Shown here piece after piece: positions 8,592 through 17,908 of a DNA stretch of 64,000 nucleotides. Position numbers and translations under genes: made by a program. Source of the stretch: Methyloprofundus sedimenti (lineage in GTDB: Bacteria > Pseudomonadota > Gammaproteobacteria > Methylococcales > Methylomonadaceae); assembly GCF_002072955.1 (NCBI RefSeq), contig NZ_LPUF01000001.1, forward strand, positions 2,192,896 through 2,256,895. Direction: 5' to 3'. Every line of letters begins with the position of its first letter. Positions within the stretch are counted from its first letter, which is position 1. The notes under the pieces were generated by a model, which saw only the letters and a list, made by a program, of their open reading frames with translations, made no database searches and had not been told where the DNA came from.

Positions 8592-8786
8592 TTTTCCTTT
8601 TTATATTTTAGTCGTTTAATTAGGGAAAAGATTTCAATCAGAACAGGGTTCGGGTAGCATTCAATCTGCCATTGATTGCCCTTTAAATGGTTAAACCCAG
8701 CCTTTATTTGTATTATCCGGCTATTAATAACAGTAAATGTTTTATAATAGTTTAATCTCATTTCACATTAAATCTTGTTAGTTTAA

Positions 8787-11291
8787 ATGAAGAAACAAGC
8801 CTCCATTCCAGGGATAGCGGAACATGACTTAGAATCCCAGGCCCTGTCCCTGCAACAAAAAGCTAAATATAAAGACGCGATAAAGCTGTATAAGAAAATA
8901 TTACAGGTTTCTGATAACGTGTCATGCAAGCAGAATCTTGCTTATTGTTATATACAGCGAGCAAAAGATTTTGCTGTAAAAGGCATGTATAAGGAAGCGC
9001 TAGTGTTGTGGGAGAATCATCGTGTATATGCCCACAGTCCATACGCTGCTTATGATCAATATATTATCTGGTTGATACAAACAAATAACCTGACTAAAAT
9101 CGAGGCTAGCCTGGGGGAATTAACAGCTCAACAACTGGATACGCAATATCCAGCATTGGCAAACGTTCTGGGTTTATTGATGCTTTCCGGGCACCCGGAA
9201 TTTGCACATAGTTTGCCACAAGACTCTTTACTTATCGCACATTTTAATCTTGTTCAGACTGCACTACAGGCATATCAGGATAATAATACTGAAAAGCTCA
9301 ACGAGGCTTTACGGCAGTTACCTTACCGCTCTGCTTTTAGAGATTTTCGGACCTTATTTAACGCTATCCTTGTTATGCCTGACTCACCCGCACAGGCGCA
9401 GATAGTATTGGCTAAAATCCGTGTTAGTTCGCCTTATGCGCAGGCAGCAAAAATATTGCTTGCTTGTACCAGAGAAGGTGCTGAACTTGCCGGGAAACTT
9501 GTGCAACTAAATTATCAACAACGTAGTTTTGTTAGTGAAATTAAAGGCTTGAGTAAAAATCAACTGGATTTTATTGAACACTTTTGCCGCCAGCATAAAA
9601 GCTTGTCAGACAAGGTACAATTTAACCTGGCAATTCAATATCAGTCATTAATAGGCGCTGAGCTGGCACAGCATTTTTGTCAGACATTACTGGCTAGCTA
9701 TCCTGCTGGAAACAAAGAGTTTAACAAGCACTTTAGCGAGGCGAGTGAGCTTGAAGAAAATCGGGTTAAGGCATTATTCTGTGAACAGGATAATAATCTT
9801 TATGATGCAGAATATTATTGGAAACAGTGTATAGACATTCTGGATAATGAAGCGGCTGATAATAGTTTGAAAATTGCCCTGATTTTACAGCGCATGGCCG
9901 CCACTGAACCGGAAGGAGAAAAACGAACCGGTTTATTGATCGATAGTGTGGCGTATGATCCGGACAATCGTAATACTTATTTGCAAATTATTCATTATTT
10001 TAGTCAGCAGCAGAAGACATTAAAGGAGCATAAGCAATGGTTAGTAAAAACCCTGGAAAAGTTTCCGCAGGATGTCGAGGTTTTAACTCAGGCAGTTAAA
10101 GCCGCAACACGGAATAAGACCCATAAAAAAGCCAGTCAATATGCCAGTAAAATATTAAAAATTGATCCGCTCAATACTTTTGCCAAACAAACGCTATTTT
10201 CCAGTTATCTGGCACATGCACGGCGTTTGATGCGCGAAAAAAACTATCATTTGGTGGAAAAAGAGATTAGTAAAGCTGAACAGCTCAATATAGGCAAAGC
10301 GTATCTTAAGCAAGTGCAGTTAATGCGCGCGCTATTGTGTTTTGCCAATATCAATAAACAACAAGGGTTGCAGGACATTAGTTCTGCACTCGATAATTTG
10401 TATGCCGATCCAGTCAATATTCAATTTCAGGCGACTGTGTCAGCCTTGCTCAATGGTTTACCTGTGGCTACTCTTTTGCGTGAACTGCCGGACACAAAAG
10501 AGCATATATTATCTGCACAGGAATTGACTGTGCTTATACAGCAATTAAATCAGTATGCTAATGACCATGAAGACAGGGACTATTTATCTAAAGCACTGGA
10601 TAAAATTAAACCCCCGTTGAAAAAATCGCTTACAGAGCATGAATATGATGAAAAGCTGTTATTAAATTTATGTCAGGCATTAGATACGGTTGAGCATTTC
10701 GAATTATTACGCCATTGTGCAAAACTGGCCCAGCGTAAATGGGCAACGCCAATCTGGATGTATTACCGGGTGTATGCAGATAATAATGGTGATGCAACAG
10801 AGTGTTCTGATCTGGATGTGTATCGTTTGCAATATGCTAATCATCAAGCTGCCGAGGATAAAGACTTTCCGACAGCCATATTGATCGATAAATTTCTGGA
10901 TAGTTATTTTGATGCTCATCCACAGCAAGCAGCCGGATTTCTTGAAGGACTGTTCGGTGATTTTATGGACGGCGATGCTAAGGAGTTCGATGATCCCTTA
11001 GCAGAGTTATTTGACCATCTTTCTGATCGTGTGATGATTGATCTTAATGCCAGGGCGGAATCATTATTAAAAACAATGACACCGGAAAAATTGACTCAGG
11101 AGTTAGCTCAACAAGTTGGAGAGGAACAATCGTTGTTCCTCGCGATGATGGTAAACCCTGAGATATTTTCTGCGCTAATACTACTTAAAGCCGCTGATGA
11201 ATTACACATTGATATCGATGCGAATATTTATGATGTTATTGAAGTTTTTGGTATTTCTGACAAAAAAAACTCATTTCCACTCCCTTTTTAA
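8787..11291 (+). CDS. Large TPR-like protein of the Hsp70 cluster
   Basis: An 834-residue soluble protein, first gene of a five-gene chaperone operon. Residues ~10-70 form a clear TPR pair (ALSLQQKAKYKDAIKLYKKI ... NLAYCYIQRAKDFAVKGMY). More TPR-like helices recur around residues 330-480 (YDAEYYWKQCIDIL, ASQYASKILKIDPLNTFAKQ). The acidic C-terminus ends in DPLAELFDHLSDR and an amphipathic tail. There is no signal peptide. It lies 14 bases before the J-protein gene. TPR proteins often present clients or dock to Hsp70, so a scaffold or substrate-recognition role is inferred. No characterised homologue was recognised. Confidence 0.85.
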   Translation: MKKQASIPGIAEHDLESQALSLQQKAKYKDAIKLYKKILQVSDNVSCKQNLAYCYIQRAKDFAVKGMYKEALVLWENHRVYAHSPYAAYDQYIIWLIQTNNLTKIEASLGELTAQQLDTQYPALANVLGLLMLSGHPEFAHSLPQDSLLIAHFNLVQTALQAYQDNNTEKLNEALRQLPYRSAFRDFRTLFNAILVMPDSPAQAQIVLAKIRVSSPYAQAAKILLACTREGAELAGKLVQLNYQQRSFVSEIKGLSKNQLDFIEHFCRQHKSLSDKVQFNLAIQYQSLIGAELAQHFCQTLLASYPAGNKEFNKHFSEASELEENRVKALFCEQDNNLYDAEYYWKQCIDILDNEAADNSLKIALILQRMAATEPEGEKRTGLLIDSVAYDPDNRNTYLQIIHYFSQQQKTLKEHKQWLVKTLEKFPQDVEVLTQAVKAATRNKTHKKASQYASKILKIDPLNTFAKQTLFSSYLAHARRLMREKNYHLVEKEISKAEQLNIGKAYLKQVQLMRALLCFANINKQQGLQDISSALDNLYADPVNIQFQATVSALLNGLPVATLLRELPDTKEHILSAQELTVLIQQLNQYANDHEDRDYLSKALDKIKPPLKKSLTEHEYDEKLLLNLCQALDTVEHFELLRHCAKLAQRKWATPIWMYYRVYADNNGDATECSDLDVYRLQYANHQAAEDKDFPTAILIDKFLDSYFDAHPQQAAGFLEGLFGDFMDGDAKEFDDPLAELFDHLSDRVMIDLNARAESLLKTMTPEKLTQELAQQVGEEQSLFLAMMVNPEIFSALILLKAADELHIDIDANIYDVIEVFGISDKKNSFPLPF

Positions 11292-11305
11292 GTGACTATT
11301 TTACT

Positions 11306-11632
11306 ATGCAGACTCCTTATCAAATACTCGGTGTAGACATTGATGCCACTGATGATGAAATTAAACAGGCTTATTTACATCAAGTTAAACAAAGTCCACC
11401 TGATCGCGATCAGCAACAGTTTCAGTTAATACACGATGCTTACACTGCCATTAAAGATCATAAAAGCAGAGTCAGTTATGATTTGTTTACTCTTCCGGTA
11501 GCTGATTTCACTACCATACTAGACAAAGCATTACAGACTGGGCTGTCGGGTGCCATGAACGCTGAGTCTGTAAAAAAATTATTAACTATCAGCATTGATA
11601 ATGCCAGTTTATTAGCCAGCCTTGAGAAATAA
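11306..11632 (+). CDS. Short J-domain protein with altered HPD motif
   Basis: 108 residues. The N-terminal J-domain is recognisable (YQILGVDIDATDDEIKQAYL, then FQLIHDAYTAIKDHKSRVSYD), but the loop that should read HPD reads PPD (residues 31-33). The loop is also shorter than in DnaJ. There is no G/F, zinc-finger or C-terminal DnaJ domain; a helical tail of about 45 residues follows. J-proteins stimulate Hsp70 ATPase, and the His of HPD is normally essential. Position between the TPR and GrpE-like genes, with its stop overlapping the next ATG, ties it to the Hsp70 below. Confidence 0.85.
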   Translation: MQTPYQILGVDIDATDDEIKQAYLHQVKQSPPDRDQQQFQLIHDAYTAIKDHKSRVSYDLFTLPVADFTTILDKALQTGLSGAMNAESVKKLLTISIDNASLLASLEK

Positions 11633-12291
11633 TGACTACAGAAGCACAAAAGACTGAATTACTGGAAGATTTCCAGAGGTATTTACAGCAGAACGTCCCT
11701 GAATCATTTGCCTCTCAGGAACAGCCTGACCTGCATACCTTGCTCGGAGAATTAACCGGTTTAAAAACTGAAGTCAAAGCGGAATCCAGACAGTTTAAAA
11801 ATACGCTGGATACCCTGAGCTCGGCACTGGAAACAGTACAAAATGATAATAAAGTCTTATCTGCCGAGCTTGCTGCAAGTACGGATCGCTTGGTGCGACA
11901 GCAAGCTGAAATGATGCGCAGCATGCTGCTGGACATGGTAGATTTGTATGATCGTTTAAGTACAGGCCTGGATGTGTTGCAAAATTATCGACCAGTGAAT
12001 GCTTTGTTTAAACATTCCAGGCAAAAAGACGTACGTTTTATTGAACGTTTTAAGCAAGGGCAGGAAATGACCCTTAAACGTTTTGAACAATTATTGCAAG
12101 GCTATCAGGTCAGGACTGTAAACTGTAAAGGTCAGACTTTGGATCCTTTGACCATGAAGGCCATTGCAACAGAAGAGAATTCTAAATTTGCTAATGGCAT
12201 TGTGCTGGAAGAATTGCGTAAAGGCTTTTTGTATCAAGATCAGGTGCTGCGTTTAGCAGAAGTTAAAGTAAATAAAATCAAGGTTGGATAA
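11632..12291 (+). CDS. GrpE-like nucleotide-exchange factor
   Basis: 219 residues: a long coiled-coil N-terminal half (about 35-110) followed by a GrpE-type beta domain (CKGQTLDPLTMKAIATEENS ... GIVLEELRKGFLYQDQVLRL, AEVKVNK). The end resembles E. coli GrpE's VVxELRKGYLLxGRxLRPAxVxV pattern. It should exchange ADP for ATP on the Hsp70 encoded four bases downstream. It overlaps the J-protein stop codon (TAATG), which implies coupled translation. It is divergent, so probably a dedicated second copy rather than the housekeeping grpE. Confidence 0.85.
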   Translation: MTTEAQKTELLEDFQRYLQQNVPESFASQEQPDLHTLLGELTGLKTEVKAESRQFKNTLDTLSSALETVQNDNKVLSAELAASTDRLVRQQAEMMRSMLLDMVDLYDRLSTGLDVLQNYRPVNALFKHSRQKDVRFIERFKQGQEMTLKRFEQLLQGYQVRTVNCKGQTLDPLTMKAIATEENSKFANGIVLEELRKGFLYQDQVLRLAEVKVNKIKVG

Positions 12292-12294
12292 CGC

Positions 12295-14055
12295 ATGAAC
12301 GATATTATTATTGGCATAGATTTAGGTACCACCAACTCAGAAGTTTCTATCGTCGAAAACGGTAAAGTGATTGTCATTGCTGATGGCGACAAGAAAATGC
12401 TGCCTTCTTTTGTTGGTATGGATGATAACGGACAGATTATCGTAGGCGAAACTGCGCGCAACCAGTATCTGGTTTATCCGGAAAGAACCATTAAATCGAT
12501 CAAACGTTTGATGGGCCAGGATATTCATGTTGAATTAGCCGGGCAGGCCTACACACCGCAGGAAATTTCAGCCATCATTCTTAAACGCCTGAAAGCTATT
12601 GCTGAAAACCATCTAGGACAAGTAGTGAGCAAAGCGGTAATTACCGTGCCGGCTTATTTTTCCGATGCACAACGGCAAGCAACTCGCGAAGCTGGAGAAA
12701 TTGCTGGCTTAGAAGTTGTGCGCATGATTAACGAACCGACCGCTGCCGCGCTTGCGTATGATGCGAAGCAATCTGAATCCAGGAAAGTATTAGTGTATGA
12801 CCTGGGGGGGGGAACTTTTGACGTATCGGTAGTCAATATAGAATCAGGTGTGGTTGAGGTATTATCTAGTCATGGTGATAATCAGCTGGGGGGTGATGAT
12901 TTTGATCAGCAGATCGTTGAATATCTGTTGCAGCATATACTGGACACGCAGCACGTGGATGTACGTCAACACAGTAAAGCCATGGCACGAATTACCCGTG
13001 CTGCAGAAGAAGCAAAATTTTTACTTTCCGATCAGCCTTATGCACAGATTGATGAAGAATATTTACTAGAGCATGAGGGCGTTGCCATTCATTTATCGCA
13101 TGAGCTTTCCAGAATAGCTTATGAAGAGATGATAGAAGATTATATTAATGTCACCCTGGATGCCGTACATATTGCTTTGAAAGGGGCAAAATTTACGACT
13201 ATGGATATTGATGAAATTATACTGGTGGGTGGTTCTACACGTACGCCATGTATACGCGAGCGCCTGCTGAATGAATTTGGCTTCGAGCCGCATAGTGAAG
13301 TCGATCCGGATTTATGTGTCGCCATGGGCGCGGCCATTCAGGCAGCGATGATTGCAGGACAGGAAGTGGATACGGTATTGGTTGATGTTACACCTTATAC
13401 CTATGGAACCAGTGCAATTGGTTCACTGGATGGAGCACCGTATCCTTTTATGTACGTGCCTATTATTCATAAAAATACAGTCTTGCCGAATCGTAAATCA
13501 GATGCATTTGCAACCAGTTATGATGGTCAGGAAGCGGTTGAAATTACGATATATCAGGGAGAAGACCCTGATGCATTAAATAATGTCAAAATCGGTGAGT
13601 TTCGGGTTGAGGGTTTGCTGGATGTTGCTGCTGGAAATATTATTACTCTTACTCTGGCACTGGATCTGAATGGCATTTTGCAGGTTTCTGCGCAAGAAAA
13701 AGATACTGGCCTGGAGAAATCTATTACCATTAAAAATGCTTTATCTCAGTTTGAAGGCTCGTCTCTGGATACCGCAAAACAACGTATCAACTCTTTGTTA
13801 GGGCACATGGATCCTCGTGTCATTGAACATGAGTCGTCGACAGAAAGGGAACAGGCGGTAGCAGCGGAAATTTTAGCTGCACGAGAGCTGATTGCTAAAG
13901 CCGAGGGCTTATTTGAGCAAGTATCAAATGAAGACAAGGAAGACATGATTGATTTAATTGAAACGCTAACCAGCTGTATCGCCGCAAATGATATTCAGGG
14001 TCTGGATGATCCAACCACACAATTACGGGATATTATTTATTATCTGGAATCCTGA
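12295..14055 (+). CDS. Second Hsp70 (DnaK-like) chaperone
   Basis: 586 residues, shorter than DnaK (about 640). The ATPase domain shows IGIDLGTTNSEVSIV (residue ~6), VITVPAYFSDAQRQATREAG (~115), RMINEPTAAALAYD (~143), DLGGGTFDVSVV (~169) and LVGGSTRTP (~309). The substrate-binding beta domain follows (GEFRVEGL ... ILQVSAQEKDTGLEKSITI). The helical lid is reduced to about 90 residues and the C-terminus (DIIYYLES) lacks the DnaK tail. The gene is embedded with its own J-, GrpE- and TPR-protein genes. This looks like an HscC-like or otherwise specialised Hsp70 rather than the housekeeping dnaK-dnaJ locus (inference). Confidence 0.93.
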   Translation: MNDIIIGIDLGTTNSEVSIVENGKVIVIADGDKKMLPSFVGMDDNGQIIVGETARNQYLVYPERTIKSIKRLMGQDIHVELAGQAYTPQEISAIILKRLKAIAENHLGQVVSKAVITVPAYFSDAQRQATREAGEIAGLEVVRMINEPTAAALAYDAKQSESRKVLVYDLGGGTFDVSVVNIESGVVEVLSSHGDNQLGGDDFDQQIVEYLLQHILDTQHVDVRQHSKAMARITRAAEEAKFLLSDQPYAQIDEEYLLEHEGVAIHLSHELSRIAYEEMIEDYINVTLDAVHIALKGAKFTTMDIDEIILVGGSTRTPCIRERLLNEFGFEPHSEVDPDLCVAMGAAIQAAMIAGQEVDTVLVDVTPYTYGTSAIGSLDGAPYPFMYVPIIHKNTVLPNRKSDAFATSYDGQEAVEITIYQGEDPDALNNVKIGEFRVEGLLDVAAGNIITLTLALDLNGILQVSAQEKDTGLEKSITIKNALSQFEGSSLDTAKQRINSLLGHMDPRVIEHESSTEREQAVAAEILAARELIAKAEGLFEQVSNEDKEDMIDLIETLTSCIAANDIQGLDDPTTQLRDIIYYLES

Positions 14056-14450
14056 TGCTGCGTTGTCCCAGCTGTAATGCACGCTTAAATGAGCGAGTGA
14101 TATGCTCCAGATGCCGGGCTGATCTGACTGCGCTGATTAGCGCAGAACAAGCTGCGCAACAGTGGTTTACTAAAGCAGTCGAGTATTATTTAGCAGCTAA
14201 TGTTGAACAAAGTATTACTGCATTATCGATTTCCCTAGGCTTAAACACGACCCGCTTGGCTATTGTGTTTCGTGAATTTATAATCGAGCGGCAGTGCTAC
14301 GAGATTCTCGATTTACTGGCACAAAAACGTGTATTGGCTGCAAAGCGCAGTTTGTATAAAGTTCATTTTTTATTCCCCTATAGCAAACAGTTGCTCCATT
14401 TAAACTTATTTAGCGATTATTTATTAGTAAACAGAACGGGTGGTGCGTAG
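14055..14450 (+). CDS. Zinc-ribbon helical protein closing the Hsp70 operon
   Basis: 131 residues. A four-cysteine zinc ribbon opens the protein (CPSC at 4-7 and CSRC at 17-20), followed by all-helical sequence containing TPR/SEL1-like stretches (WFTKAVEYYLAANVEQSITA). Its ATG overlaps the Hsp70 stop codon (TGATG), so it is translationally coupled and very likely part of the same machine. No named family was recognised. Its conserved order after the Hsp70 would be worth checking in other genomes. Confidence 0.8.
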   Translation: MLRCPSCNARLNERVICSRCRADLTALISAEQAAQQWFTKAVEYYLAANVEQSITALSISLGLNTTRLAIVFREFIIERQCYEILDLLAQKRVLAAKRSLYKVHFLFPYSKQLLHLNLFSDYLLVNRTGGA

Positions 14451-14506: not shown

Positions 14507-17500
14507 ATGAAAATTAGCATAAACTCTAGCATTATCAGTCATTGTGGAAGGCTATTCCTGTTTATTTTTTTTGTATGTAATAGCGCTTATGCGGCTAATT
14601 CACTGATTGATATCTATGCAACACAGGCCCCCGTTTCATTAAAGACGCTTGCTGCAAAAATCAAAGATGCTGAAGCAAATGTTGAACTGAGTGAAACAAC
14701 AAAAATACAATTACTGGAGCTTTACCGAAAAACCAGTAATTATCTGGAGCAAGTTCATACCAATAATGCCATGATCGAAGCATTGGTTTTATTTAGAAAC
14801 CAGGCTCCGGAACAAGTTAAACTGCTCAGAAAAAAAATAGAGATAAATCAAGCCAAAGCATCTCGTACAACTGTCATGAGTATTAATGCGGATACTCCCT
14901 TTGTTATTATCGAACAGCAACTGTTCAATGAACAAGCGAATCTTGCAGCTGTTAAGGCTAAACTCTCTGACCTGGAGCAGCAGTTAATGCTTGCGGCCGC
15001 TAAGCCAAATGAAAATAGACAACGTTTAATTGAAACAAGGCGCAGCCAGGAAACAATCACAGCGCAATTATTATTGCTTGCAACAGCTAATGAAATTTCT
15101 ATACTAACGGAAGCATCACGCTGGAAATTGGAGGCTCAGCGCCTGGCATTACGCTCGGAGATTGGCGTACTGGATCAGGAATTACTTAGCCTGCCAGTAC
15201 GCATTGATCTGCTTGAAGCTGAGCGAGACATAAATGCTTTTAAGGTTGAGCAATTAAGCAAGCAAGTCACTGCTATTCAGAAAGTTGTTAATATTCAACG
15301 TCAAATTGAAGCTGAGAAGAATAAATTATCCGCTGAAAAAACTCAACATGAACTCGAAGGTAAACATGTAATAGTACAGAAATTGGCTGAAAAAAATGCT
15401 GATTTGACTAGAATTTTAAGTCAGTTAACGCAACAGATAGACAATATTGTTATTGAAAGTAATGCAGTCAAAAAGGAAACTGAGAGCATTTCCGATCAAT
15501 TTAAGAATGTGCGTAAAAGACTTGACGTTGGAGGCTTTGGTCAGGCATTGGGACGTGTGCTATATGAGCAACAAAGGCAACTACCGCGTCCCGCTGTGCT
15601 GCAGAATAGATCAGAAAATCGAGCCATTAGCTTGGCAGAAGTGGGTTTACTGGAACTGCAATATACTGAAGAAAATAAAGTACTGAATGATATTGATACG
15701 TATATAAATCAACTCACTGCATCAATCGGTGACCTAGAGCAGGAAAAAATAAAAGCTAATCTGGAAGCACTGGCTAAAAGCAGGCAACAAATGCTCAAGC
15801 AATTGATTAATCTTAGTCGATCTTACTTACGGTCAATGAATGATTATGAATTCAATGATCAGGCTTTGCTTGCTATCATACAAGAGTATAAAGCTTTTCT
15901 TGCTCAACGTCTGTTATGGATACGCAGTGGCCCCATGCCTAACCTGGCGACAATCCAGGAAATTCCAGTGCAGCTAGTACAGATGATAAGAACAGAACGT
16001 TGGCAGGAATTAGTTATGGTGCTAGATGGAGATGAATCGCTTTCAGCGGTGACTTTCTTTGGAATAATCATAACAATAGTGCTTTTCTGGAAAACTAAAA
16101 CGATGCACCGTATGCTGGCTTTGACAGGGATGAAAGTAGGCCGGCTTTCAAGTGATAGTATAGTCTATACTTTTTATGCGCTGGGTCTAAGCTTTCTTTT
16201 AGCAGCATCCTGGCCCTCATTGTTATTACTGATTGCCTGGATGCTTAGCGTGTCAGAACACACAACACTGTTTACCGAAAGCATTTCATCCGCATTCATC
16301 TGGGTTGCTGTACACTTATTCGGATTCCGTATATTCCGAGCTATTTACGCACCTAAAGGTGTTGCTATCCAGCATTTCCATATTCCAATATTAGACGCCC
16401 AGTTACTGTACCGTGAACTGGGCTATCTGATGCGTATTTTTCTCCCCTCGGGTTTTATTTTTTCTATTTTATTCAATTCGGATTTAGCACTATCAACAGG
16501 TGAACTGGGACGTTTGTTGATCGTGGTGAGCTTAATCGCATTAACTGTATTTTTTCAGCGAATCACGACTACTCAAAAGTATAAACGAAGTAAAAGCCGG
16601 GTAGATTTTTTGCGTCTATTGCTTATTGCAGTACCCTTGATACTGATTGTGCTTGCTATCATCGGTTATGTCTATACAGCGGCACTGATTACTATGATGC
16701 TGGTTAAGACCTTATGGTTTATTCTAGGGTTGATTGTTGTTCAACGACTTGCAGTGAGATGGATCGTACTGGCTGAGCGCCGTCTTGCATTCAAGGCAGC
16801 CCTAACTGAACGTGCTGCAATTGTGGCAAAGCGTGAAGAATTAGTATCTAACCATAGACAAGAACCTGAAAGTGAAGAGGGTGAAATAGAAGAACCTGAA
16901 GTTGATTTACCTAGCTTAAGTGAACAAGGGCAGCATTTGCTTAAGATTGCTTTGATAGTAATAGGTGTATTGGGTTTATTAATGATCTGGTCTGATGTAT
17001 TGCCAGCATTCACATTATTAGAAGAAATTAAACTCTGGAATCATGCGACTATCATTGCTGGTGAACAACAAATAATGCCTGTCACTTTACTTGATCTTAG
17101 TATGGCCTGCCTGATATTGTTTGTGACTATCGTCGCTTCCAGAAACCTGCCGTCACTTCTGGAAATTATCATGTTACAAGCCAGCACGATGACAGCAGGA
17201 AGCCGCTATACTGTCACGACCATAACTAACTATATAATTTTCGCACTTGGCTTAATTCTATTCTTTAATAGACTCGGAGTAGACTGGTCGAAACTTCAAT
17301 GGCTAGTAGCCGCATTAGGTGTTGGTATCGGCTTTGGTTTACAAGAGATTGTCGCTAATTTTATCAGTGGAATTATTATTCTTTTTGAACGCCCTATTCG
17401 AGTCGGGGATATGGTTTCTATTGGTAATAATGATGGATTGGTTGTGCGTATCCGTATTCGTGCGACAACGATTAGAAATTTTGATAGAAAAGAATTACTG

Positions 17501-17908
17501 GTGCCTAATAAGGAGTTTATTACTGGTCAGTTGATTAACTGGACATTATCTGATCAGACAACACGAATAGTTATTCCAGTTGGCCTAGCCTACGGGGGGG
17601 ATGTGGAGGCAGCATTCAAACTGATGCTGGAGTCAGCACAACAACATCCATACGTGTTATCAGACCCGCCGCCTTCTGTGGTTTTTGATGCATTTGGGGA
17701 TAATGCCTTATCTTTAAAACTGCGCTGTTTTGTGGCCGATATAGATTACCGGGTACCGACGATCACTGAGTTACATAAAACCATCAATCAAAAATTTAAT
17801 GACGCAGGTCTTGTGATTGCTTTTCCGCAGCGGGATATTCATCTGGATTTCAAAACACCACTGGATGTTCGTATGCAGAGTAAGCAGCTCAATCCAGAAT
17901 CAGACTAA
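14507..17908 (+). CDS. MscK/KefA-like mechanosensitive channel
   Basis: 1133 residues. An N-terminal signal sequence ends around AYAAN (residue ~30). A long periplasmic coiled-coil region covers about 40-450, followed by roughly ten hydrophobic segments from ~510. A cytoplasmic acidic patch (EPESEEGEIEEPEVD) sits near 785. The C-terminal MscS domain contains ALGVGIGFGLQEIVANFISG (~934), ERPIRVGDMVSIG and TTIRNFDRKELLVPNKEFIT. The gate-helix glycines and NF are present. It should open under membrane tension to release osmolytes. It lies 56 bases after the Hsp70 operon and could be read through from it. Confidence 0.93.
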   Translation: MKISINSSIISHCGRLFLFIFFVCNSAYAANSLIDIYATQAPVSLKTLAAKIKDAEANVELSETTKIQLLELYRKTSNYLEQVHTNNAMIEALVLFRNQAPEQVKLLRKKIEINQAKASRTTVMSINADTPFVIIEQQLFNEQANLAAVKAKLSDLEQQLMLAAAKPNENRQRLIETRRSQETITAQLLLLATANEISILTEASRWKLEAQRLALRSEIGVLDQELLSLPVRIDLLEAERDINAFKVEQLSKQVTAIQKVVNIQRQIEAEKNKLSAEKTQHELEGKHVIVQKLAEKNADLTRILSQLTQQIDNIVIESNAVKKETESISDQFKNVRKRLDVGGFGQALGRVLYEQQRQLPRPAVLQNRSENRAISLAEVGLLELQYTEENKVLNDIDTYINQLTASIGDLEQEKIKANLEALAKSRQQMLKQLINLSRSYLRSMNDYEFNDQALLAIIQEYKAFLAQRLLWIRSGPMPNLATIQEIPVQLVQMIRTERWQELVMVLDGDESLSAVTFFGIIITIVLFWKTKTMHRMLALTGMKVGRLSSDSIVYTFYALGLSFLLAASWPSLLLLIAWMLSVSEHTTLFTESISSAFIWVAVHLFGFRIFRAIYAPKGVAIQHFHIPILDAQLLYRELGYLMRIFLPSGFIFSILFNSDLALSTGELGRLLIVVSLIALTVFFQRITTTQKYKRSKSRVDFLRLLLIAVPLILIVLAIIGYVYTAALITMMLVKTLWFILGLIVVQRLAVRWIVLAERRLAFKAALTERAAIVAKREELVSNHRQEPESEEGEIEEPEVDLPSLSEQGQHLLKIALIVIGVLGLLMIWSDVLPAFTLLEEIKLWNHATIIAGEQQIMPVTLLDLSMACLILFVTIVASRNLPSLLEIIMLQASTMTAGSRYTVTTITNYIIFALGLILFFNRLGVDWSKLQWLVAALGVGIGFGLQEIVANFISGIIILFERPIRVGDMVSIGNNDGLVVRIRIRATTIRNFDRKELLVPNKEFITGQLINWTLSDQTTRIVIPVGLAYGGDVEAAFKLMLESAQQHPYVLSDPPPSVVFDAFGDNALSLKLRCFVADIDYRVPTITELHKTINQKFNDAGLVIAFPQRDIHLDFKTPLDVRMQSKQLNPESD

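Follow-up and report, generated by a model that had tools for sequence, protein, structure and literature searches.

A conserved five-gene Hsp70 unit in Methyloprofundus sedimenti with a J-domain protein that lacks the HPD motif

The five-gene unit

Methyloprofundus sedimenti carries, in the 64,000-nucleotide stretch of contig NZ_LPUF01000001.1 that we analysed (positions 2,192,896 to 2,256,895, here termed the window), a compact unit of five genes that probably encodes a dedicated Hsp70 chaperone machine (Table 1). All five genes lie on the forward strand, between positions 8787 and 14450 of the window, and they specify in turn a tetratricopeptide-repeat (TPR) type protein, a J-domain protein, a GrpE-family nucleotide exchange factor, an Hsp70 and a small zinc-ribbon protein. 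The spacings at the junctions from gene 1 to gene 5 are +14, -1, +3 and -1 nt; thus, three of the four overlap or fall within 4 bases, as an initial annotation made from the sequence alone had stated. The gene identities that it proposed are also confirmed. The Pfam profiles score 48 bits for the J-domain (cut-off 27.8), 82.8 bits for GrpE (cut-off 25.8) and 491.9 bits for Hsp70, and genes 1 and 5 are recognised by structure prediction and invariant cysteines, not by a Pfam cut-off.

Table 1. Features of the five-gene unit and its immediate surroundings (window coordinates)
Feature	Position	Strand	Size	Basis or remark
TATAAT, likely -10 element of a sigma-70-type promoter	8743-8748	+		44 nt upstream of gene 1
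Gene 1, TPR-type helical-repeat protein	8787-11291	+	834 aa	ORF; proposed client/scaffold subunit
Gene 2, J-domain protein	11306-11632	+	108 aa	ORF; Pfam DnaJ 1.4e-12; QSPPDRD (PPD replacing HPD)
Gene 3, GrpE-family nucleotide exchange factor	11632-12291	+	219 aa	ORF; Pfam GrpE 2.9e-23
Gene 4, Hsp70	12295-14055	+	586 aa	ORF; Pfam HSP70 2.9e-147; C-terminal end YYLES
Gene 5, Cys4 zinc ribbon followed by TPR-like helices	14055-14450	+	131 aa	ORF
MscK/MscM-type mechanosensitive channel gene	14507-17908		1133 aa	56 bases downstream of gene 5
ORF, open reading frame; aa, amino acids.

Housekeeping grpE, dnaK and dnaJ genes sit next to one another elsewhere in the same genome (C1:1635900-1638887; 4.29 Mb in 6 contigs). 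The Hsp70 machine of the window is therefore an additional copy, and gene 3 is the second GrpE of the genome. The presence of this housekeeping set and the conservation of the five-gene order, which is kept at 65 of 80 named loci and beyond, bear out the initial view of a self-contained second Hsp70 machine; of the two findings that were to refute it, a genome with no other dnaK/grpE and an order not conserved in relatives, neither holds. That view had been silent on the loss of the His-Pro-Asp (HPD) motif from the J-protein, on the separate, HscC-like lineage of the Hsp70 and on the presence of the system in other phyla. The genome has a further, different Hsp70 locus at C1:2540968-2543390, with two adjoining large Hsp70-like frames (675 and 933 aa), and a partial Hsp70 match inside a 362-aa frame at C1:854381. 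Weak Hsp70-like genes also occur near the operon in L065, L089, L093, L097 and L106.

Gene 1 is present in 25 of 41 genomes (M. sedimenti and 40 relatives), including 19 of the 28 good ones. Gene 1 matched in 24 relatives, of which 20 were fetched, the partial or weak matches in G013, G026, G033 and G040 being left out; all 20 follow the five-gene order, with one contig ending ahead of gene 5. A search with a GrpE alignment led to 90 relatives, from which 80 named loci were kept; in their classification, Hsp70 matches below 200 bits were set aside and split matches were counted once. All five genes stand in order at 65 of these loci (among them L075, L108 and L111, in which a contig edge cuts gene 1), contig ends interrupt 10 of the remaining 15, and gene 1 is detected at 73 of the 80. 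These locus sets overlap, in that many of the L027-L043 records are the same as L065-L120 records, and L166, L170 and L172 repeat L137, L143 and L122. Judged from the loci compared, the conservation of order is far beyond chance. The hosts of the 80 loci are mostly Methylococcales, followed by Thiotrichales-type sulfur bacteria and relatives of Competibacter. At L086 and L135, 1.6 and 4.5 kb are inserted between the GrpE and Hsp70 genes, with all five genes otherwise present.

Wider draws, with the M. sedimenti genome included in the counts, placed the zinc-ribbon protein in 12 of 370 genomes across the class and the Hsp70 in 9 of 232 (E 1e-200); across the phylum, 14 of 299 genomes had the Hsp70 at 1e-180, and the 13 besides M. 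sedimenti all lie outside the class. In other classes of the Pseudomonadota the five-gene order was followed in 13 of 13 genomes, with gene 1 truncated at a contig end in L200. A Desulfobacterota-type draw gave the Hsp70 in 5 of 247 genomes, a count that includes the genome of L141, whose phylum we took from its label, Desulfobulbaceae. All three readable loci of this draw (L222-L224) have all five genes, and the fourth is a 4-kb contig. Further, a Nostoc plasmid carries all five genes, and three plasmids of one Acaryochloris strain (L205, L214 and L215) carry the TPR, J, GrpE and Hsp70 genes, the four searched for there; at least two of them have a broken Hsp70 frame. These plasmid operons came from an Hsp70 query. 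The window's GrpE matched nothing among plasmids, the Nostoc GrpE or J-protein returned the same four records each time and no additional plasmids, and viral contigs searched with the Hsp70 yielded no relative. By gene order, then, the five-gene unit spans several bacterial phyla in the same arrangement. Two copies may sit on misbinned contigs: in the tree, L141 clusters with a gammaproteobacterial row (98/94), and L126 is labelled Phycisphaerales.

The J-protein, its Hsp70 and the TPR partners

The HPD motif is found in none of the 98 distinct J-proteins of the system (102 rows before identical ones were merged, with L027-L046 left out). The triad at its site is PPD in 59 copies, PPE in 27, SPE in 4, PAH in 3, SPD in 2, and PPA (L086), PAE and PPS (L163) in one each. 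Position 33 is thus Pro in 92 of the 98, position 34 is Pro in 94, and position 35 is Asp or Glu in 93; the position of DnaJ Lys26 is occupied by Leu in 94, and Tyr25 is retained in all. In six genomes (M. sedimenti and five relatives), the system J-protein reads PPD in each case and the other J-domains read HPD in 18 of 18, a control that takes J-domains found by Pfam DnaJ at E 0.001 and may miss more divergent ones. The HPP(D/E) sequence of the Competibacter-type copies was considered as a shifted HPD and ruled out: spacing to helices II and III matches that in E. coli DjlC with no insertion, and position 33 is therefore Pro. Gene 2 has a short loop to helix III, no further domain above the Pfam cut-off, and no hydrophobic stretch (hydropathy peak 0.9).

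The J-proteins that partner HscC resemble those of the system in several respects. HPE and a Leu at position 26 are seen in both E. coli DjlB and DjlC; next to four of five other HscC genes (L173, L175, L176 and L177) the J-proteins read HPE, RPD, RPD and KPE, and the HscC-type partners have the same short loop to helix III. Drift of the motif therefore reaches beyond the five-gene system.

The Hsp70 retains an intact ATPase site. The 11 catalytic-site positions checked (D8, G10, T11, K70, P143, D148, R151, E171, D194, T199 and D201 in DnaK numbering, used throughout) are invariant in 73 of 73 copies. In the DnaK-DnaJ structure, the J-domain is contacted by R167, Q378, L391, P419 and D477, among other residues (PMC8215388). 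Q378, L391 and P419 are kept in all 73, as are D393, K414 and E217; R167, the partner of Asp/Glu 35, is kept in 72, the remaining copy having Lys. In L164 the Hsp70 is broken and position 167 falls in a gap. The linker, VLLL in DnaK, is mostly T/A-V-L-V. The GrpE-signature loop (about 290-295) is retained here and deleted in HscA and E. coli HscC. D211 and residues 76-101 of the nucleotide-binding domain (NBD) are deleted, as they are in HscC, and an insertion follows position 407 in the substrate-binding domain (SBD; loop L1,2). The C-terminal part, counted from DnaK-505 onward, is 104 residues long (134 in E. coli DnaK, 86 in HscC), in agreement with the reduced lid and missing DnaK tail that had been noted earlier. 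Most of the distinct Hsp70s (94 of 98) end in [YF]Y[LM][EDQ] with 0-3 residues before the stop; the Nostoc protein, outside this count, does not have the motif. The motif may simply be the end of the last lid helix. In the cyanobacterial copies, one from Nostoc and three from Acaryochloris, the J triad is PAH and position 167 of the Hsp70 is Gln. This joint loss of the J-protein acid at 35 and of Arg167, in a single lineage, fits the published D35-R167 pairing (PMC13012618).

A 39-row tree was built from 20 of the 32 system rows of an earlier tree, Nostoc, three new system rows and reference proteins; the L177 HscC (long branch, odd composition) and a Cupriavidus match were left out. The 24 system Hsp70s form one clade (100/98) and the five HscCs another (100/100). 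The tree, which is unrooted, separates the system and HscC from nine DnaKs and HscA with 100/99 support, HscA being on a long branch. Support for the system clade was lower (93/98) in the earlier tree of 41 rows, which came with a long-branch warning. The system Hsp70s fall outside the DnaK clade, and the window protein scores below the NCBIfam cut-offs for DnaK (535 of 648 and 528 of 823 bits) and HscA (414 of 709 bits). Compared with HscC, it has the same NBD 76-101 and D211 deletions and SBD L1,2 insertion, and its 586 residues slightly exceed the 550-580 given for that family (PMC8215388). Because it keeps the GrpE signature and lies outside the HscC clade, it is best placed in a separate lineage, HscC-like but not HscC. 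As one clade across phyla, the system Hsp70, so far as its phylogeny can tell, is not a recent duplicate of DnaK.

The proteins encoded at the two ends of the unit, genes 1 and 5, match Pfam TPR and zinc-ribbon models, respectively, below the cut-offs. The AlphaFold model of gene 1 is an all-helical repeat superhelix (mean predicted local distance difference test score, pLDDT, 86.7; predicted template-modelling score, pTM, 0.52). Its best Foldseek matches are TPR superhelices (Ctr9, Ski3, APC/C and IFT proteins) with template-modelling (TM) scores of at most 0.27 among the 50 matches listed, and we have read no function from such generic folds. Gene 1 has one hydrophobic stretch, near residue 782; because its peak of 1.84 is near that of tail-anchored DjlC (1.99), this protein may contact a membrane. 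All 20 aligned copies of gene 5 share C4, C7, C17 and C20, and five helices are predicted to follow the ribbon (mean pLDDT 91.0). The best structural matches are TPR domains, none at E<0.001, and the Nostoc counterpart scores as TPR in Pfam. The zinc-ribbon protein is extended to 318 aa in L044 (L044:9142-10098) and to 218 aa in L046; the L044 tail presumably resembles a GxxExxY-type domain.

Proposed mechanism, its rivals and related systems

With modest confidence, we favour the view that the five genes encode an ancient, dedicated second Hsp70 machine, in which the J-protein can dispense with the histidine in engaging its cognate Hsp70 and the TPR and zinc-ribbon/TPR proteins replace the client-binding part of DnaJ. 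The Hsp70 would run a normal ATP cycle, with gene 3 as its own exchange factor. Gene 2 would recruit, and probably activate, the gene 4 Hsp70 only, through contact of Asp/Glu 35 with Arg167 and an altered helix II (Leu 26) and with no contact between His33 and the linker; docking is likely to be maintained because both Asp/Glu 35 and Arg167 are kept. Genes 1 and 5 would select the client, hold it and deliver it to the Hsp70, a role that we assign to them because gene 2 has no recognisable client-binding part. We infer that the machine serves a dedicated client.

Published work on the motif bears on this proposal in different ways. In some systems, activation is not fully lost in a triple HPD/AAA variant (PMC13012618), and stimulation of Hsc70 has been reported for a designed J analogue that has no HPD (PMC13254874). 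In simulations, an H33A change left binding intact, but not activation (PMC13012618). A J-protein altered to QPD or HPN, for example, no longer stimulates, and HPE seems to be the sole tolerated replacement (PMC13254874).

Several observations count against the reading that we favour. H-to-Q and D-to-N changes are known to abolish stimulation (work cited in PMC8215388 and PMC13254874), and gene 2 could therefore be inactive. D477, D208, E206 and D211 of DnaK are not conserved in the system Hsp70s. The PPA and PPS copies have no acid at position 35 beside Hsp70s with Arg167; the pairing is thus not strict, and the cyanobacterial co-change represents one lineage only. Gene 1 has no match in G017, a genome of the same genus that is 99% complete, and the system is therefore dispensable there. 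Five of the 80 loci depart from the five-gene arrangement with no contig end to account for it: L077 has neither TPR nor J gene, L128 and L130 have GrpE alone, L133 has remnants of the Hsp70 and no TPR or J gene, and L134 has neither Hsp70 nor zinc ribbon. L163 (G105) reads TPR-J-Hsp70 with no GrpE in place or elsewhere in its 9 kb, its zinc-ribbon side being cut by the contig start. Finally, Competibacter-type loci have a 747-1006-aa ORF just upstream in eight cases and a 255-269-aa ORF downstream in seven.

The rival that we take most seriously, although we doubt it, is that gene 2 is a pseudo-J regulator (type IV, Pam16-like) that binds and positions the Hsp70 but does not stimulate it, stimulation being supplied by a canonical DnaJ or CbpA-like protein encoded elsewhere in the genome or by the TPR protein. 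Pam16 provides a precedent (PMC13254874), His33 is gone from all 98 copies, the cyanobacterial copies have lost the whole motif (PAH), and J-proteins with an intact HPD are available in the same genomes. Yet the Hsp70 preserves the docking residues R167 (72 of 73), Q378, L391, P419 and E217, and an Asp or Glu at position 35 in 93 of 98 copies would be needless in a pure placeholder. A bolder extension of our own proposal seems to us unlikely: an HPD-independent ATPase cycle in a fourth bacterial Hsp70 lineage, joined to a conserved Y-L-E-S tail that recruits the TPR proteins of the operon as a counterpart of the EEVD-TPR arrangement. In the eukaryotic EEVD/TPR clamp, a TPR partner recognises an acidic motif at the Hsp70 C-terminus; the [YF]Y[LM][EDQ] end could play this part or, as noted above, simply close the last lid helix, and no clamp residues were identified.

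Another explanation is that the unit is an HscC-type system, that is, HscC with a DjlB/C-like J-protein, that has kept or regained GrpE. E. coli HscC-DjlB/DjlC is likewise a second Hsp70 beside DnaK with a private J-protein. The two Hsp70s have in common the NBD 76-101 deletion, the loss of D211, the SBD insertion after 407 and the short lid, and they fall on the same side of the unrooted tree (100/99); the J-domains are alike in the short loop, the loss of Lys26 and a non-HPD motif (HPE in DjlB and DjlC), and four of the five HscC-adjacent J-proteins also deviate. The two families nevertheless form separate clades (100/98 and 100/100). HscC does not have the GrpE signature and is not expected to bind GrpE; the system keeps the signature. 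DjlB and DjlC are long and tail-anchored (PMC8215388), unlike gene 2 with its hydropathy peak of 0.9. The neighbours of E. coli HscC are Sel1 and DUF1266 proteins instead of a TPR and zinc-ribbon pair, and no GrpE, TPR or zinc-ribbon model matched in the five HscC loci scanned. We consider this explanation decidedly improbable. That the unit is an ordinary duplicate of the DnaK machine, with neither a special client nor special chemistry, is more remote by far. Second DnaK-GrpE sets do exist, for example MXAN_6672-6671 of Myxococcus (PMC11019930), and DnaK has been seen with GrpE on plasmids; but the single clade across phyla means that the duplication is not recent, the J-domain has no HPD, two extra subunits are conserved, and no good sigma-32 promoter match was found.

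Other known systems resemble the unit in part. DnaK-DnaJ-GrpE has the same combination of Hsp70, J-domain and GrpE, with an intact ATPase site, Arg167 and the GrpE loop; it differs in that the system J-protein has no HPD or recognised client domain, the system Hsp70 does not have NBD 76-101 or the long tail and belongs to a separate clade, and TPR and zinc-ribbon proteins are added. HscA-HscB is also a dedicated Hsp70/J pair, but no iron-sulfur genes were recognised at the locus, and HscA has no GrpE loop and groups, on a long branch, with DnaK. In Myxococcus xanthus, MXAN_6672 is a private GrpE encoded upstream of the second DnaK, MxDnaK2, in a bicistron; this set is distinguished from ours by its description only, as no five-gene unit figures in the relevant parts of that account (PMC11019930). 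Type IV J-proteins such as Pam16 and DnaJB13 have a recognisable J-domain without HPD (PMC13254874); the system J-protein differs from them in that a conserved bacterial operon supplies it with an Hsp70 and GrpE of its own and in that P-D/E is usually kept. We found no description of the five-gene system in the open-access full-text literature searched, and it may be tabulated in the J-protein survey of Barriot et al. (2020).

A 2026 review regards it as enigmatic whether deviations from HPD are accidents or have been selected (PMC13254874). Here, Pseudomonadota, Desulfobacterota-type genomes and cyanobacterial plasmids alike retain a J-domain without the histidine, accompanied by an Hsp70 and a GrpE of its own. 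Because this J-domain is kept in an operon with its cognate Hsp70, the question can be tested on a natural pair, and the system bears directly on whether HPD is indispensable. Further, the system extends by one lineage the set of bacterial Hsp70s that have been compared, which comprises the three types DnaK, HscA and HscC (PMC8215388), and in this bacterial machine the choice of client appears to have moved from the J-protein to the TPR and zinc-ribbon partners.

Flanking genes and promoter

The recognised neighbours of the unit in the window encode a DUF6524 protein and the MscK-type channel. Among the 20 fetched relatives, the flanking genes of the window have only a weak MscK match (L035) and a short match to the 81-aa ORF (L028). 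The flanks offer no shared clue to the client: when ORFs of at least 80 aa around the 80 loci were clustered, no family stood beside more than 11 loci, and the largest resembles receiver/kinase proteins, at varying distances. An anti-phage role was considered and dropped, the PADLOC models having given only weak and partial matches, none of them useful (best E 0.0014, to the Csm2 model) and no stretch passing alone.

No good match to a sigma-32 promoter was found, the best having 4 mismatches in 13 positions in the window and 3 in L036. For the TATAAT element, the 90 nt that precede gene 1 were compared in 12 regions, one from the window and 11 from relatives among the 20 fetched. The TATAAT of the window is missing from the listing of one simple promoter scan. 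A TATAAT occurs 31-52 nt upstream of gene 1 in 10 of the 12 regions, where base shuffles lead one to expect 1.5; the operon promoter looks sigma-70-like.

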